DNA of 64,000 nt from Struthio camelus (Eukaryota; Chordata; Aves; Struthioniformes; Struthionidae): assembly GCF_040807025.1 (NCBI RefSeq), contig NC_090967.1, forward strand, positions 4,338,001-4,402,000, read 5' to 3'. The notes under the pieces are model-generated. The model ran no database searches. It saw only the letters and a list, made by a program, of their open reading frames with translations, and was not told the origin of the DNA. Positions 40,722-60,600 of this stretch are shown in pieces (position 1 is the stretch's first letter; each line of letters starts with the position of its first letter). Both the position numbers and the translations under genes were made by a program.

Positions 40722-50113
<9,392 letters not shown>

Positions 50114-50345
50114 GCTCCGGCTGCCCAGCCAGCGCCGCGGGGGCCGGGGACACGGCCGGCAGCAGCAGCCGGGAGCCAGGCTGTGCTTCACCCCGCGCGG
50201 CCGCGCCGCCCCTTCGCTTCCGTGACGCTGGCAGGCGCCCGCCGGCCGCACGCGTCCCCCACGCTCACCCGGCCCCGCGGCCGGCATCGGGGTCCGGGAC
50301 ACCGCGGCGGTGTCCCCACGGCTCTACGCACCCCAGCACAGCAGC

Positions 50346-50351
50346 AATAAA
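50346..50351 (+). terminator. ANKRD24 polyadenylation signal
   Basis: AATAAA in the context CAGCAATAAAGTA, 233 bp after the stop codon. Confidence 0.85.
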
Positions 50352-50369
50352 GTATTTATACTCACGCCA

Positions 50370-51600
50370 ACGGGGCCGCTCGTCCCTGGGGGGAGACAAG
50401 GACGGGGATGGGGACAGCTGGCATCAGGCCACGTGTGCCAGGGGTGTTGGGGGAGGCTGGGGCACTGGGGTTTGGACACGTCTCCCATGGTGTCCCCAGC
50501 TATGCTGGCGCCCCTAGGAGGGGACCGGGTCAGCTGAGACAGAAACGTGCCCTTTGCAGGGCGATGGGATGGGAAAGGTTGGAAACCATCCTGGCCAGAG
50601 CTGAAAGCGTGTCCGCACGGGGGTCCCGCTCCATTGTGGGGCTGCTCGCGGGGCCAGGCGGTGGCAGGTCCCGCGGCGAGGACAGCGTTTCCTGCGCAAG
50701 GAAGTGGGCTGTGGCCGGGCTGGGGCCACAGCTTCCCGAGCCTTTGGTGGTGACAAAGCCTCCAGCTCCCAGCCTGGACGCCTGGCCGTGCTGCGGTGAG
50801 CGCTGGGGGGGGGGTCTAAGGGCACCCTGCGGGGCTGGGAGGCACGGGAGGGACCTGGTGCCACTGGGGTTGGGGACATCCCCACGGTGCCCGGCTAGGG
50901 GACACCACGGGGAACCTTTCATTCTAGACATGGGGAAACTGAGGCATGACCCCTGCAGCAGGGCCGGTAGCTGGCGCTGGGGCTGAGCCAGGCCCATGCT
51001 CAGGGTGGGCGATGCTAAGGGCAGGATACGGCCCGGCGGTGCTGGGCACGGTCACGGCAGGGAACCCAGCTCAGCTCCCCCCAAGCTGGGATTTGGGAAG
51101 TCTCTAGGGACCCCCAAACTGGGGATGGTTCCCCCTTAGCCACCCTGGGAAGGCGATGGCCATCTGGGTGGCGCTGGCCCCTTCCCCAGCCCCATCGCCA
51201 CATCCGAGGTCTGGAATCGCCCGAAACCTCAATTCCGGGCACGAGACCGCAGGGGCGGCTGCAGGCCCCCGCGGGAAACCCCGGCCACGCACAGCGCTTT
51301 CGCTCCCGCCTCCGCTCCCTCCTCTTTCCCGGCAGCAGGATCAGGCTATTGTGGGGAGAAACCAGACCCCGTCCCCAAGGGATGCAGCGAGGCCAGAGGG
51401 GAAACTGAGGCACGGCAGCGTGGGGTGGCCCTGTGGCAGGGCAGAAGGGTTTGAAGTCCCGGCTTGGGAGCGAGTGCCCACGGGAGGGTGCTGGGGACAC
51501 CGCGGTCACGGTGTCTCTGCTGTCCTCTACCCTGGGGGTGACCGACCCACTGTCCCCGCAGGTCCCCAGCCCCAGGCACCGGGCAGCTCTGCTGGGTCAC
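50370..51600. other. ANKRD24-EBI3 spacer with EBI3 promoter
   Basis: GC-rich unique DNA of 1.2 kb. No exon of another gene is seen. It holds two MIR-like GGGGAAACTGAGGCA fragments (about 50931 and 51399). The EBI3 transcription start must lie in or near its right end; I see no TATA box close to the start codon. Confidence 0.5.
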
Positions 51601-51606
51601 CCTGAC

Positions 51607-54600
51607 ATGAAGTGGCTTTGGGTGGTGGCTTTCGTGGCACCTGCCTGCACCGCTCCCAGCAACGGCACGGCTGGGGGCGCCGGGGACGGAGGTATGGGGG
51701 GCATGGGGACCGGGCATGGGGACGCCAGGGACGGAGGTATGGGGGGCATGGGGACCGGGCATGGGGGTGCTGGGGATGGAGGTGTTGGGAGAAGGGCACC
51801 AGGCATTGGAGTGCCGGGGATGGGAGGTGCAGGGGGAGATCGGGGGAACTGGGATGGAGGGACTGGAGGTGCTGGGAATGGAGGTATGGAGGGAGCTGGG
51901 GGGGACCGGGGAGAGTAGGACTGGGGTGTACTGGGAGGATCTGGGATGGAGGTATGGGATCTGGGGGGATCCAGGATGGTGATATGGGAGCTGCGGGGAT
52001 CTGGTATGGAGATATGGGATCTGGGAGGATCTGGCATGGAGGTATGCGATCTGGGGGGATCCGGGATGGAGGCGTGCAAGCTGGGGGGATCTGGGATGGA
52101 GGTGTGGGAGCTGGGGGGACCTGAGATGGAGGTGTGGGAGCTGGGGGGATCTAGGATGGAGGTGTGGGAGCTGGGGGGACCTGAGATGGAGGTATGGGAG
52201 CTGGGGGGATCTAGGATGGAGGTGTAGGAGCTGGGGGGATCTGGGATGGAGGTGTGGGAGCTGGGGGGATATGGGATGGAAATGTGGGAGCTGCAGGGAT
52301 CCGGGATGGAGGTGTGGGAGCTGGGGGGATCTAGGATGGAGGTATGGGATCTGGGGGGATCTGGGATGGAGGTGTGGGAGCTGGGGGATCTAGGATGGAG
52401 GTGTGGGATCTGGGGGGATATGGGATGGAGGTGTGGGAGCTGGAGGGATCTGGGATGGAGGTATGGGATCTGGGGGGATCCGGGATGGAGGCGTGCAAGC
52501 TGGGGGGATCCAGGATGGAGGTATGGGATCTGGGGGGATCCGGGATGGAGGTGTGGGAGCTGGGGGGATCCAGGATGGAGGTATGGGATCTGGGGGGATC
52601 TAGGACGGAGGTGTGGGATCTGGGGGGATCTGGGATGGAGGTATGGGATCTGGGGAGATCTGGGATGGAGGAGTGGGAGCTGGGGGGATATGGGATGGAA
52701 GTGTGGGATCTGGGGGGATCCGGGATGGAGGTGTGGGAGCTGGGGGGATCTGGGATGGAGGTGTGGGATCTGGGGGGACCCAGGATGGTGATATGGGAGC
52801 TGCGGGGATCTGGTATGGAGATATGGGATCTGGGAGGATCTGGCATGGAGGTATGGGATCTGGGGGGATCCGGGATGGAGGCGTGCAAGCTGGGGGGATC
52901 TGGGATGGAGGTATGGGATCTGGGGGTATGTGGGATGGAGGTATGGGATCTGGGGGGATCTGGGATGGAGGTGTGGGAGCTGGGGGGATCTAGGATGGAG
53001 GTATGGGAGCTGGGGGGATCCGGGATGGAGGTATGGGAGCTGGGGGGATCCGGGATGGAGGTGTGGGAGCTGGGGGGATATGGGATGGAGGTGTGGGAGC
53101 TGGGGGGATCTAGGATGGAGGTGTGGGAGCTGGGGGATCTAGGATAGAGGTGTGGGATCTGGGGGGATCCGGGATGGAGGTATGGGGAACACTAGGGGGA
53201 AATGGGTGGACTGAGGATGGAGGGAGGAGGGATGGGGGAACTAGGAATGAAGGTCTAGGGATACTGGGGGGACTGGGAACATGGCAGAGACTGTAGATGG
53301 AGGGATGGGGGACCGGGAGAGCAGGGCACGGGAGGAAAGCAGGGGTCAGGGGTGCAGCGATGGAGGAACAGGGGATGGAGGGTGCAGGCGGCACCCTCCG
53401 AGGGCCGTGGGCCCGTGGGGACCCTGAAGTCTGGGATGGGGGCTGTGGGGGCAGGGGGGGACAGGGACCTTCCCGTCCCAGCTCCCAGCTGGGGACAGCA
53501 CCTCGGAAAGTCCCTGCTGGGCAAGGAGGCTGTAGGAAACGACGACGGGGTGGGGGAGAAGACCAAGGAGACCAAGGACCATCTTGGACACCGCGTCCTC
53601 CCCCTCGGGGAGGGGACAGGGACCGGGTTGGGGTGGGGGGGGTCCAGCCTGCGCCCACCACCGCCGCTTCCCCCAGGCGGCTGCACCCTGCAGCACGGCG
53701 TGCTGGGCACCGAGGTGCTGCTGCGGTGCCCGGCGGCGCCGGGGGGGGCCGCGGCCGCCTGGCGCCGGGGGGACACGGCCCTGGGGACGCACCCGCCGCC
53801 GGGGCTAGCCCTGCCCAACGCCAGCCTGGCCCACGAGGGCCACTACAGCTGCCACCACCCCGCCACCGGCGAGACCTGGGCCACCGTCTGCCTGCGCCTG
53901 GGCTGTGAGTGACCCCAACACCCCGCCGGGCTCGTGGTCCCCTGCCGCTGGCCTTGGTGGCGGGGGGGGGGGGACCCAGCGGCAGCGGGGTGACCGTGGG
54001 CATCACCCTGCCCTAGATCCGCCCGCGCCGCCGGCCGTCGAGTGCTGGGCCATCAGCTACCCGCAGGCGGTGAACTGCTCCTGGGCCGCCGAGCCCGAGC
54101 CGCTGCTGGAGACCCACTACGTGGCCACGTACAGGTGAAGCGAGCGCCCGGCTGAGACCGGCCGCCGTCGTGTCGCAAGTGGGGCGGCGGGCCAGGCCCC
54201 CTCCCCTCCCTCCCCCCCCCAGCCCCAGCTCCCTCTTTCCCCCTTTCCTCCATCCTCCCCGCCGCCCTCCCCAAACCAGGCACGGCGTGTGGGGGGCCGC
54301 GGGGAGCGGCGAGTGCGTCCGCACGGGGCCCCGCAGCTGCTCCTTCGGCGACGTCCAGATGTTCTCCCTCAGCCCCTACGTGCTGAACGTGACGGCCGTG
54401 AGCCCCCTGGGCAGCGCCTCGCGCCTCCTCCCCTTCCTCGTGGAAGACATCAGTGAGTGCCGGACGCCTGGCTCCGCTCGGGTTTAATCCGCCCCCCCCC
54501 CCCGGGGTGGTGGGGTTGGGGTGGGGGTCCTTTCGGAAAAGGGGTTGCCGGGCGTTTTCAGCTCGGGAGGTGGAAACGTCAGCGTCACGAGTTTGCTGGG

Positions 54601-55124
54601 TCTCAGCCCGGCTCCGCGTCCCGCCGTTCCGCCGTCCCCACCGGCCAGGGACTCTCCTCACGCCGGTCATTATTTCCCTGCTTCGTTAGTAAAGCCAGAC
54701 CCCCCCGAGGACCTGCGGGTCTCGCCCATCCCCGGGGAGACGAAGAAGCTGCTGCTGGAGTGGAGCCCGCCGGCGTCCTGGCCCTTCCCCGAATACTTCC
54801 CGCTCAAGTATCACGTCCGCTACGCGCGGGACGAGGTCTCCAGCCCCAAAACGGTACTGCCCGGCCCCCGCTGCTGCCGTGCCGGTGTCCTCGCACGCCG
54901 GGTAAACTGAGGCACGGCCGAGGGACCGTCCCGCTCGGTCCCCCCCAACCCCGGCTCTGTCCCGTCCCCAGATCGGACCCTACGAGCAGACGTCCGTCAC
55001 CCTGACGGGGTTGCGCCCCGGCACCCTGCACCATGTCCAAGTGGCCGCGAAGGACTTCACAGACTACGGGGAGTTCAGCGCCTGGAGCCAGCCGGCCTCG
55101 GGGACGCCCTGGACGGAGCCGTGA
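51607..55124 (+). CDS. EBI3: EBI3, IL-27/IL-35 beta subunit, with an extra Ig-like domain
   Basis: EBI3 is a secreted soluble class I cytokine-receptor-like chain that pairs with p28 (IL-27) or p35 (IL-35). Coding exons: 51607-51691, 53677-53904, 54017-54134, 54280-54452, 54690-54853, 54972-55124 (TGA). Phases agree, giving 306 aa; human has 229. [16 protein letters not shown] is a plausible signal peptide. Exon 2 (76 codons) is an Ig-like domain with two cysteines (LLRC and YSC), a Trp (AAWRRG) and NAS sequon; mammalian EBI3 lacks it. Then cytokine-receptor D1 ([35 protein letters not shown]) and D2 ([50 protein letters not shown]). FSAWS is a degenerate WSxWS box, as in human EBI3. Identity rests on D1/D2 and position before YJU2. 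Exon 1 is the least certain part, since it is short and its donor lies in a repeat. Confidence 0.9.
51680..53260. repeat. EBI3 intron 1 minisatellite, about 30-bp unit
   Basis: Roughly fifty tandem copies of a 30-bp unit, typified by GGATGGAGGTGTGGGAGCTG followed by GGGGGATCTG. Variants are ATATGG, ATCCAGG and CTGCGGGG. The left end (51683-51790) has a longer 45-bp unit duplicated once. Units contain GGAGGTATGG or GGAGGTGTGG, matching the exon 1 donor. Because 30 is divisible by three, long stop-free frames run through it; they are not genes. Confidence 0.95.
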
Positions 55125-55295
55125 CGGCGGTGCAGCGGGACCCCGCGTGCCCCGGCGCCTCTGTCCCCCATGTCCCCACCAGCGCCAGCAGCATCCTCCT
55201 CCCCGCGCCGCCGGGTCCGGCCCTGCTGAACCCCTCGAGAGCTGAGCCGCGTCCGCGCTCCGCGCCAGGACGCTGCGTCGTGGACAGAATTGGGC

Positions 55296-55301
55296 AATAA
55301 A
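55296..55301 (+). terminator. EBI3 polyadenylation signal
   Basis: AATAAA in GGGCAATAAACAGG, 172 bp after the stop codon. Confidence 0.85.
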
Positions 55302-55599
55302 CAGGATGCTTTGGGGCAAGAAACAGCTTGAGGCTCCTGTCCCCGTCCTGAATTTGTTACGTTCTCCATGAAACGACCAGCAGGCGCCAGAGCCGAGCGG
55401 CTGTGCTATGGGATGGGGCCGGGGATGGTCCACAGCCGCCGCTGCGGGAGCCGGTCGCGAGCCCGAGCCAGGACGCACCCTGGGGTCGGCCCCGTCGCTG
55501 GACGCGGGGCCAGGACGAGCAAACCCCACTGGGCACTGGGTCAGCCCAGCATGTGGGGCAGGGAGAGGGTACCCACTGCGTGGACCTGGCCCCTATGGC

Positions 55600-56040
55600 T
55601 CCTATGGCCCGGGCTGGTCTCTGTGGCTCCCCAGAGCCTGGACCGGTCCCTATAGTCTGGTACTGGCCCCTATGGCTCAGACTGGTCCCTATGGCTTGGA
55701 CTGGTCCCTATGTTCTGAACTGGTCCCTATGGCTCAGACTGGTCCCTGTGGTCTGGTCCTGGCCCTGATGGCTCAGACTGGTCCCTATGGTCTGAACTGG
55801 TCCCTATGGCTCAGTCTGGTCCCTATGGTCTGGACTGGTCCCAGTAGTCCAGACTGGTCCCTATGACCTAGATTAGTCCTGATGGCCCAGACTGGCCCTA
55901 ATGGCCCAGAGCAGCTGCTATGGCTGGGACAAGCCCCTATAGCCTGGACTGATCCCTAGGGCCTGTCCTGGTCCTTATGGCCCAGACTGATTCCTATGAC
56001 CTGGACTGGCCCTTAAAGGCCCAGACCGGTCTCTATAGCT
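55600..56040. repeat. 19-bp minisatellite downstream of EBI3
   Basis: CTGGTCCCTATGGCTCAGA-type units at an exact 19-bp spacing near 55682, 55701, 55720 and 55739, becoming more diverged (CTGGCCC, CTGATGG) to the right. Confidence 0.85.
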
Positions 56041-56059
56041 GAGATTGGCCCCTATAGTC

Positions 56060-57300
56060 TATGGCATGTATTGGCCTCGCGCCAGGCTCTATGGGCTCGT
56101 GTGTGCCCATGATGGGCCCTACAGGCTCGTACAGTCCTGTGCCAGGCTCTACAGGCTCATATGTGCCCATGCCAGGCTCCACAAGCTCGTATGGGCTCGC
56201 GCCAGGCTCCACAGGATGGTACAGCCCCGCGCCGGGCTCTACGGCTGTGTATGGGCTCGGGCCGCCCTCTACAGGCGCGTATGGGCCGGCCACGGGCTCT
56301 ACAGAGTCCGGTGGGCTGTCACCAGGCTCTGCAGGCTCCTGTGGCCTCGTGCCTGGCTCTATGGACCCATACGTGCCCCTGCTTGGCCCTATGGGTGTAC
56401 ACGTGCCCTTGCCTGACCCTATGGGCTCATACGCGCCTGTGCTGGTCCCTATGGGCGTGCACATGCCCTTGCCTGACTCTACGGGCTCCTACACGCCTGT
56501 GCTGGTCTCTATGGGTGTGTACATGCCCTTGCCTGACCCTATGGGCTCCTACATGCCTGTGCTGGTTTCTATGGGTGTGTACATGCCCTTGCCTGACCCT
56601 ATGGGCTCATACGCGCCTGTGCTGGTCCCTATGGGTGTGGACGCACCCCTGTCTAGTCCTATGGGCTCGTATGGGCCCTGTCGGTCCCTATGGGTGTGCA
56701 CATGCTCTTGCCTGACCCTATGGGCTCGTACACACCCCTGTCTGGTCCTATGGGCTCGTACGGGCCCCTGCCAGTCTTTAAGGGTGTGCACGTGCCCTTG
56801 CCTGACCCTATGGGCTCCTACATGCCTCTGCCAGTCCCTATGGGCTCGTACGCACCACTGTCTGGTCCTATGGGCTCGTACGCGCCCCTGCCAGTCCCTA
56901 TGGGTGTGTACGTGCCCTTGCCTGACCCTATGGGCTCCTACGGGCCCCTGCCGGTCCCTATGGGTGTGCACGTGCCCTTGCCTGCCTCTATGGGCTCATA
57001 CGTGCCCCTGCCAGTCCCTATGGGTTTGTACGTGCCCCTGCCAGTCTCTATGGGCTTGTATGGGCCCCTGCCAGTCCCTATGGGTGTGTACAAGCTCTTG
57101 CCTGACCCTATGGCTCATACGTGCCCCTGCCGGTCCCTATGGGTTTGTACGTGCCCTTGCCTGACCCTATGGGCTCCTACAGGCCCGTGCCAGTCCCTAT
57201 GGGCTCGCATAGGCTTATTCCGGCCCCTACGCGTGTGCCCCTACAGGCTCATGCCTGGACTGGTCCCTCTGGCCCATGCTGGTCCCTGCGGCCCGCACTG
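56060..57300. repeat. 60-bp (2 x 30) minisatellite upstream of YJU2
   Basis: The higher-order unit is 60 bp, made of two related 30-bp halves: CCTTGCCTGACCCTATGGGC and CCAGTCCCTATGGGTGTGCA types. Phase is kept exactly over many units from about 56401 to 57060. The CCCTATGG core is shared with the neighbouring 19-bp array, so the two probably have a common origin. Stop-free frames of several hundred codons result from the period. Confidence 0.95.
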
Positions 57301-57625
57301 GTCCCCACGGCCCCTGCCCTGTCCGGACCGGCCGCCCCCACCCCCCCGGGGCCCCGGCCGCCCCCCCACTCCCTCCCCCGCCCGGAACGCTCCTCTCCGG
57401 CCGCCGCGCGTGCACGGGCACTTGGCACCGAGCGCAGGGGCCGCAGCGCGGTGGGCGGGGCTAGCTGACAGGCAGCCAGTAGAATCCCTCAGCCATCGGC
57501 GTTCCCTCCAATGAGTGGAGGCGGGGGGCGGGAGCTCTCTCCCGGAAGTTGCGGGGCTGCGCGGGGGGGGCGGTTGCCGAGGAGCACCGGGCCGGGTCGG
57601 GCAGGGTTGGGAGGGGGGCGCAGAC
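57300..57625 (+). promoter_or_regulatory. YJU2 promoter
   Basis: A CpG-rich, TATA-less segment directly right of the minisatellite. A CCAAT box lies at 57508-57512 and an ETS/GABP site CCGGAAGT at 57542-57549, 114 and 77 bp upstream of the start codon. This is a usual housekeeping arrangement. Confidence 0.65.
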
Positions 57626-60600
57626 ATGTCGGAGCGGAAGGTTTTGAACGTGAGTTGGGGGGGGCGAGGCTGAGTGGAGGTCCTGGGCTAGGGGGTCTCT
57701 GGTCAATGCGGGGGCCCTCGGGGTTGGGGGTCTTTAGGGCTCCCCAGTTTATGGGTCCTGGGGGGGTTCCTGATCGGTGGGGGGGGCCTCGGGGTTAGGG
57801 TCTTTAGGGGTCCCCAGTTTATGGGTCCTGGGGGGGTTCCTGATCGGTGGGGGGGCCCTGGGGGTTAGGGGTCTTTGGGGGTCCCCAGTTTATGGGTCCT
57901 GGGGGGGGTTCCTGATCAGTGGGGGGGCCCTGGGGGTTAGGGGTCTTTGGGGGTCCCCAGTTTATGGGTCCGGGGGGGGGTTCCTGATCGGTGGGGGGGG
58001 CCTCGGGGTTAGGGTCTTTAGGGGTCCCCAGTTTATGGGTCCTGGGGGGGTTCCTGATCGGTGGGGGGGCCCTGGGGGGTTAGGGGTCTTTGGGGGTCCC
58101 CAGTTTATGTGTTCTGGGGGGGTTCCTGATCAGTGGGGGGGGGCTCTGGGGGTTAGGGGTCCTTGGGGGACCCCAGTTTATGGGTCCTGGGGGGGGTCCC
58201 TGATCAGTGGGGGACCCTCGGGGTTGGAGGTCTTTAGGGGTCCCCAGCCTGGGGGTCTTGGAGAAGGTCCTTGATCGATGGCGTGGGGGGGGGGGCTCAG
58301 GCTGAAAGGGGTCCATGGGGGGAATCTCAGGCTGATCGTGGTTCCCTGGCTGGGCGGGGGGTGGTTGTTGTGGGGGGATTCTCTGGCTGGGGGTTTCTGG
58401 CAGCATCTGGGGGGGCTGCTTGGGGAAAGGGAGATGGGGGAGTCTGGAAGGGAGGTTGTGGCAGGGCTGGCCGTGGTCAGGGATCTGTGTGACTGTGGCA
58501 AGCATGGGCGAAGGGTTGGGGATTTTGGAGGGTGGGGAGGGCAAGCAAGGGTTGGGGGGAGCAGGGCTAAAGGCTCGGAGACAGGCGGACGGACAGACGC
58601 TGGTGCCTGGACTCCAGCTGGGGTTAGATATTGGTGTGTTTGTCCCTTGCTACCATACCTGGCTGGTAGGGGCAGGCTGGCTCCTGCTGTGTGCGGGGAG
58701 GGGAGCCTTGAGCTGATCCTGGGGCCTGAAACGGCGAGTGGGAGCCTCCCTGCCGCAGTTCTCACCCCTTTGGGTATGTCAGCACCCAGCACACGCACAT
58801 CTCTGCTCTGTTCCCATAGAAATACTACCCGCCAGACTTCGATCCTGCTAAGATCCCAAAACTCAAACTCCCGAAGGACCGGCAGTATGTGGTGCGGCTC
58901 ATGGCTCCCTTCAACATGCGGTAAGAGGGGCCGGGGTAGTAGGAAGGGAGCAGCTGTAGAAGAAAGGAGTTTGCTTGGGGATCATTTAGCTTCCACACAG
59001 AGCAGAGGAGCCGCTGCCACTAGAAGAGGCATGGATCACAAGAAAAGGGAGGCGGGAGAGGGAAACGATGCTGGGGGTGATTTGAGTAGGTGTTGAATTT
59101 ACAAAGTTAAAAATAACCATTGCTCAGAACCTGGGCGGATGCGGCCTGAAAATCACTTGGACTTTTCTCGGTCTTCTCGTTCTCTTCTTTCAATGTGTTA
59201 TGGACTTCTCTTTCTCTTTTTTTAGATGCAAGACATGCGGTGAATACATCTATAAGGGGAAGAAGTTCAATGCCCGTAAGGAGACTGTTCAGAATGAGGT
59301 GTACTTGGGACTTCCCATCTTCCGCTTCTACATCAAGTGCACACGTTGCCTGGCAGAGATCACTTTCAAGGTGAAGTTTCTTGGGGTGGTTCTGTATTTT
59401 CTGGGCTCTCAGTTTCCGGGCAGACAGTATGGTCTGTGGGCTGAGCCCTGGAAATGAGGGATAGCTAGCTCCATGGGGAGGGGAGGTTTCAGCAAGTACA
59501 GAGTCGGAGCATGTGCTGTTTGATGTCTTTTCCCTTTTCATAGAAGTTTGGAGCCCTGAAGTGTCTTGTCTATCACATGGGCAGGGCACAGTAGCAAGTC
59601 ACCTGTAGGAGAGCACAGGGGTGTAGGTGATTGCCTGCCTGTAATGTGAATGAAACAGCATAGAGGGATCAGGAAAACATTTGCGTGTGGCTCTGGAAGT
59701 AGCGCTTGGATGTTTGCAGACAGCAGAATGCCTGGCCCCAGGCAGGATACTGGGAGCAGGAGTCCCCCAATACAATGATTTCACTTCTTCTGTAGACAGA
59801 TCCTGAGAACACGGACTACACCATGGAGCATGGGGCCACTCGCAACTTTCAAGCTGAGAAGCTCTTGGAAGAAGAAGAGAAGAGAATGCAGAAGGAGAGG
59901 GAAGACGAAGAGCTAAACAATCCCATGAAGGTACTGGAACGTGCCCTTCTCTGCAGAACAGAAACCTTCTACCTGCTCCAACTGGCTTTCCCTCACAGAG
60001 CAGGTGACTTTGTAGCTATTGGTTTAGTTTTCCAGGCTCCTGAGATAGTCTCGTGCTCTAGAGCAGCCCTTAGAACTGCTACAGATAGGAGCCAGTTATT
60101 GGCTCCTGGGAGGTTTTCTCCCATGCTGGGACTTGTGACAGAGTGCAGTTTACCCCTATCATGCATACTAAGGCACGAAAGTTAGGCCGATGACCCTCCT
60201 AGTGCTTTCTGCACTGTACTTGGTGTAGAGGCTGTGTCAGACCTTGCTGGTGGACCCTGCTACCTCACATAAGCTTGGCTTCCTCCTCCTCTTCCTCCCC
60301 CAGGTCCTGGAGAACCGAACCAAGGACTCCAAGCTGGAGATGGAGGTTCTGGAGAACCTGCAGGAACTGAAAGAGCTCAACCAGCGTCAGGCGAATGTGG
60401 ACTTCGAGGCCATGCTGCAGCAGTACAAGGAGTATGAGGAGGAGCAGAAGCGCAAGGAGCAGGAGGAGGATGAGCAAGAGATGAAGTGAGTGGGCTGGAA
60501 GTGTTCCTAGGTGTGTGAAACCAGCCGAGCTGGCCCTGGCCAGGCAGGGCTGTGTCTTGCCCTCTCCTTAGCTTCTCAAGCGGCCTGGTGTGAGGGCTAA

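Follow-up and report, generated by a model that had tools for sequence, protein, structure and literature searches.

Ostrich EBI3 probably carries an N-terminal immunoglobulin-like domain of the CNTFR/IL11RA/IL6R kind

We analysed 64 kb of the ostrich (Struthio camelus) genome (contig NC_090967.1, positions 4,338,001 to 4,402,000; "the window" below), which lies within an 8.0-Mb contig (C26) of the 1.45-Gb genome. The window contains a gene for EBI3, the subunit that IL-27 and IL-35 have in common. The gene departs from the two-domain description of mammalian EBI3 in having an exon for an immunoglobulin-like (Ig) domain ahead of its two FN3 domains, as known from the gene sequence. Taken jointly, we consider it probable that the exon genuinely codes for part of EBI3, that the product has three domains, and that the Ig domain was inherited.

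The gene model comprises six exons on the plus strand (51607-55124), all introns are GT-AG, and the product has 306 residues. See Table 1 for the exons. The Ig exon (53677-53904, 228 nt) is preceded by AG at 53675-53676, followed by GT at 53905-53906, and is entered and left in phase 1. A preliminary description had placed such an exon, in the correct phase, between the signal-peptide exon and the first FN3 domain, and its splice sites and phases are as it stated. The Ig frame connects exon 1 (last base 51691), which judged by eye from its residues looks like a signal peptide, with exon 3 at 54017. Reading the bare exon coordinates in frame 1 meets a stop, and the spliced frame is open. We infer from these features that the exon is spliced into the mRNA.

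Next, we compared the Ig domain with known proteins. The exon together with 28 adjoining residues, mostly of the first FN3 domain, matched CNTFR at E 5.8e-10, IL11RA at 1.5e-9, and IL6R at 0.0011. The alignment score of the Ig domain with IL11RA or CNTFR was reached by 0 of 2000 shuffles for either one. A tblastn comparison of human IL11RA and CNTFR with the window returned the FN3 exons (four and three, respectively) plus positions 53688-53948, and matches elsewhere in the window had E 0.036 or worse. Compared with the human genes, the Ig domains are about equally distant from one another (EBI3-IL11RA 27/71 identical, EBI3-CNTFR 25/72, IL11RA-CNTFR 24/73). These results support a predicted Ig-type domain of the CNTFR/IL11RA/IL6R kind, in agreement with the preliminary description, and because of this homology we do not regard the exon as a chance resemblance.

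The exon also has the Cys...Trp...Tyr-x-Cys pattern first noticed in it, as C46, W57, and Y85-S-C87, the last within H-E-G-H-Y-S-C, where His replaces the usual Asp. An alignment shows that human CNTFR likewise has His in place of Asp before Tyr-x-Cys. Taken alone the pattern is weak and was rejected as evidence, with the homology being decisive: stop-free matches to C-x(9-17)-W-x(24-48)-Y-x-C number five on the two strands of the window, Ig exon included. A stricter form with G-x-Y-x-C occurs twice, again including the Ig exon, with 0.18 expected per 64 kb from 60 first-order Markov simulations. We also tried a pattern requiring Asp, Glu, or Asn, which missed the Ig exon, so its simulated rate of 0.03 is uninformative. 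Additional cysteines at residues 31 and 100, near both ends of the Ig domain, could from their positions form a second disulfide within it.

Outside the Ig exon, the identity of the gene is clear. Its protein matches PF24031, the IL27B N-terminal FN3 family, at 126 bits against a cut-off of 42 (residues 109-195), and fn3 at residues 204-294, these Pfam numbers referring to a 305-residue query and running one lower than the 306-residue gene model. In the PDB it matches human and mouse EBI3 best, followed by IL11RA, CNTFR, CRLF1, and IL6R (whole-protein scores of 194 bits for human EBI3, 140 for IL11RA, 130 for CNTFR, and 76 for IL6R). Over the FN3 domains, 97 of 191 residues (0.51) are identical to human EBI3, versus 0.31-0.38 for IL11RA and CNTFR, and in a six-sequence FN3 tree the gene groups with human EBI3 (support 1.000). 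On this sequence evidence the gene is EBI3, as first proposed. The protein ends 11 residues past the fn3 match (294 of 305), with the stop codon at 55122-55124 and no transmembrane segment or anchor; the soluble form is read from one gene model, with alternative 3' exons outside that check.

To place the Ig exon, we turned to related genes in the ostrich genome. The ostrich CNTFR (contig C40), 55% identical to human CNTFR, has a single 231-nt Ig exon of phase 1/1, as does the best ostrich match to human IL6R (contig C30, E 3.7e-5). The Ig domain of ostrich IL11RA (C40) lies in two exons (minus strand, 2304-2245 and 2026-1862 of locus L009). A single phase-1/1 Ig exon is common to EBI3, CNTFR, and IL6R, three of the four genes, and IL11RA differs. 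A genome-wide search with the EBI3 Ig exon found no near copy among 13 matches at E<=10 from 20 scored candidates: the exon itself came first, the next match had E 0.56, and the CNTFR Ig exon, with hits on two contigs, took ranks three and four. Two large contigs, C40 and C41 (loci L002-L011, L019, and L020), both carry the IL11RA-CNTFR region and are 98.6-99.6% identical over the four stretches compared; they may represent alternative haplotypes, or else a pair of sex chromosomes sharing a long homologous section.

Because single phase-1/1 Ig exons occur in EBI3, CNTFR, and IL6R and no near copy was found, an ancestral origin is favoured. Most likely, the Ig exon was inherited from the common ancestor of EBI3, CNTFR, IL11RA, and IL6R and was lost toward human and mouse EBI3. 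The preliminary description had left retention and regain side by side; gene structure now speaks for retention, the trees described below do not decide, and identity to ostrich IL11RA leans mildly to regain. We place retention ahead, without certainty, giving gene structure more weight than identity.

Several results weigh against this reading. The Ig exon alone is closer to contactin-2 (3.2e-5) than to CNTFR (0.0041), and no Pfam Ig model reached its curated cut-off, the exon alone scoring 22.9 bits with Ig_2 (cut-off 27) and 22.8 with Ig_5 (cut-off 27.3), and the whole EBI3 protein 19.9 and 18.7 bits. The EBI3 sequences available for comparison were the human and mouse PDB chains only; a pattern search for other vertebrate EBI3 gave no match in viral contigs and 15 in genome contigs, none confirmed, as expected of those collections. 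Furthermore, the Ig domain of EBI3 shares 34 of 68 residues with that of ostrich IL11RA, which exceeds the identity between ostrich and human IL11RA (34/73). The FN3 regions of EBI3 and ostrich IL11RA are identical at only 72/190 positions (38%), and those of ostrich and human IL11RA at 122/192. Comparison of the Ig and FN3 identities therefore makes the Ig domain more IL11RA-like than the rest of EBI3, a contrast unlike plain ancient paralogy unless two GC-rich exons converged, and the high Ig identity mildly favours a later acquisition. In Ig trees built from a 6-sequence set (approximately unbiased (AU) test, four models) and a 7-sequence set (two models) and compared over four topologies, placing EBI3 as sister to IL11RA or within IL11RA gave equal likelihoods in both sets.

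The corresponding alternative is that the bird/reptile line regained the domain, with a two-domain EBI3 acquiring, between its signal peptide and its first FN3 domain, an exon that stemmed from IL11RA or was converted by it. We consider this unlikely. It draws on ostrich IL11RA being the closest Ig domain, ahead of human IL11RA (26/71), human CNTFR (24/69), ostrich CNTFR (19/69), and human IL6R (22/70), and on the within-IL11RA topology being as likely as the ancestral one. However, the Ig domain of ostrich IL11RA is split by an intron and that of EBI3 is not, and the single phase-1/1 exon of EBI3 is the form found in CNTFR and IL6R. The high identity is also in part compositional: the identity expected by chance is 0.098 for EBI3 and ostrich IL11RA versus 0.058-0.079 when EBI3 is paired with the four remaining Ig domains in the 6-sequence set, and removal of pairs within Gly/Ala/Arg/Pro leaves 17/45, with 22/56 for ostrich and human IL11RA. 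Topologies placing EBI3 with CNTFR or IL6R were worse by 2.1-2.7 log units in the 6-sequence set and 4.1-4.8 in the 7-sequence set, with one of twelve AU values below 0.05 (0.0452, 7-sequence set). In free trees the two IL11RA sequences were not joined, and the ostrich one sat on a short branch; as they were not joined, the Ig domain is too short to decide.

Two further explanations concern the exon itself. It could be a relic or a minor alternative that most mRNA skips, leaving a 230-residue two-domain EBI3 as in mammals, which seems very improbable to us. Skipping does keep the frame open, so a two-domain isoform is compatible with the sequence alone, and the donor score is moderate (5.9, rank 50 of 541 GT sites at 50000-60000, using an approximate consensus). 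However, the donors at 54452 (5.43) and 54853 (1.62) of the same gene score lower on that consensus, and the Ig exon retains an open frame, splice sites, Ig core residues, and homology across the whole domain. Alternatively, a GC-rich intron, open by accident, could mimic an Ig pattern. The five loose pattern matches, the Pfam Ig scores below cut-off, and a frame that is open far past the exon (53259-53909), also ahead of its acceptor, all fit this idea, and since third-position GC reaches 0.99 in the stretch, the open frame is weak evidence. Yet chance of this kind is scarcely credible given the match of Ig domain and linker to CNTFR, the shuffle result, and splice boundaries and phases that fit.

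In its overall layout, ostrich EBI3 combines features of several known proteins. As in mammalian EBI3, both FN3 domains are present and the gene model predicts a secreted protein without a membrane anchor. Unlike the ostrich gene, with its Ig domain in front, the human and mouse PDB chains start at the first FN3 domain and match the FN3 domains only. IL11RA, a membrane receptor, has the same Ig-FN3-FN3 order, aligns with EBI3 end to end, and has the closest Ig domain, but its FN3 domains are 38% alike and its Ig domain in the ostrich is intron-split. CNTFR, a glycosylphosphatidylinositol-anchored receptor, likewise is Ig-FN3-FN3 with a single phase-1/1 Ig exon and, in human, the His before Tyr-x-Cys, but its FN3 domains are 31% alike. 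IL6R has lower similarity to EBI3 (22/70 over the human Ig domain), and IL-12 p40 matches in the FN3 part only.

A survey of 405 species places EBI3, CNTFR, IL11RA, and IL6R in one group with FN3 domains, "occasionally with Ig-like domains" (PMC12162339). There, CNTFR-, IL11RA-, and IL6R-like EBI3 homologs are found mostly in fish, birds, and reptiles, are nearly absent in mammals, and "may be ancient forms of EBI3 homologs". These passages come close to an ancestral Ig domain but describe no EBI3 gene with such an exon. We found no paper on the EBI3 Ig exon, in a search that left out most subscription journals and deposited gene predictions; the latter may already show it.

The ostrich protein would be a secreted Ig-FN3-FN3 molecule whose layout resembles the soluble CNTFR, IL11RA, or IL6R ectodomain. 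A four-helix cytokine would be gripped at the elbow between its two FN3 domains and offered to gp130-type receptors. The Ig domain would sit N-terminally, off the cytokine interface, and probably aid folding, secretion, and stability, or make side contacts; a role in folding, secretion, or stability is more likely than a strong effect on pairing. In the solved complexes described in PMC10022904, the cytokine is bound where the two FN3 domains meet at an elbow, remote from the alpha receptor's Ig domain, and in the CNTF complex the CNTFR Ig domain was positioned by rigid-body fitting and is not part of the refined interaction core. Since an added Ig domain would lie away from the cytokine, a strong change in pairing is unlikely, which weakens the earlier suggestion that it could alter pairing with p28 or p35.

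Regarding these partners, the genome contains a p35-family exon (PF03039). Human p28 gave no credible match in the ostrich genome (four at E<=10 among 11 scored, the best at 0.014 with six internal stops), although absence is unproven for so divergent a cytokine. The 405-species survey finds p28 almost only in mammals (PMC12162339), contrary to a review that lists all chains including p28 as known in fish (PMC4929537). Rather doubtful is a scenario in which bird/reptile EBI3 is a soluble three-domain alpha receptor without p28, its Ig domain re-acquired from IL11RA, that could hand a different four-helix cytokine to gp130-type receptors.

Table 1. Exons of the ostrich EBI3 gene model (window positions)
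Feature	Position	Strand	Evidence
Exon 1, coding part, ends in phase 1	51607..51691	+	ATG at 51607, open frame, GT donor
Exon 2, predicted N-terminal Ig domain, residues ~29-105, phase 1/1	53677..53904	+	Splice sites, phase, CNTFR/IL11RA/IL6R homology, model
Exon 3, first FN3 domain, first half	54017..54134	+	Gene model; Pfam FN3_IL27B_N
Exon 4, first FN3 domain, second half	54280..54452	+	Gene model; Pfam
Exon 5, second FN3 domain, first half	54690..54853	+	Gene model; Pfam
Exon 6, second FN3 domain, second half, and stop codon	54972..55124	+	Gene model; Pfam

Upstream of EBI3 are an exon of an ankyrin-repeat gene, presumably ANKRD24, a SIRT6 exon, and a bZIP gene, and downstream are exons of YJU2. 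The SIRT6, ankyrin, and YJU2 exons around the gene fit the neighbourhood of human EBI3, where the order is SIRT6, ANKRD24, EBI3, YJU2, and the surroundings of the gene are in this respect conserved. The SIRT6-containing frame was named via a PDB sequence; neither it nor another frame that lies upstream of EBI3, at 48985-49689, gave a Pfam family. Tandem Repeats Finder identified a 30-bp minisatellite of ~42 copies (51931-53186, plus strand) that takes up over half of intron 1, the intron separating the signal-peptide exon of EBI3 from its Ig exon, and could hinder assembly, mapping, and gene prediction here. Additional arrays lie 3' of EBI3, with 19/38-bp units at 55638-56055, ~29 copies of a 30-bp unit at 56350-57207, and a 72-bp unit at 57710-58247. 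The main text of PMC4290089, on genes missing in birds, mentions none of EBI3, ANKRD24, SIRT6, and IL27.

If true, a three-domain EBI3 would show the layout of the ancestor of soluble and membrane alpha receptors. It would also help to establish when mammals lost the Ig domain, and provide a natural comparison for the function of this domain. Furthermore, non-mammalian EBI3 gene models that skip the Ig exon may be wrong.
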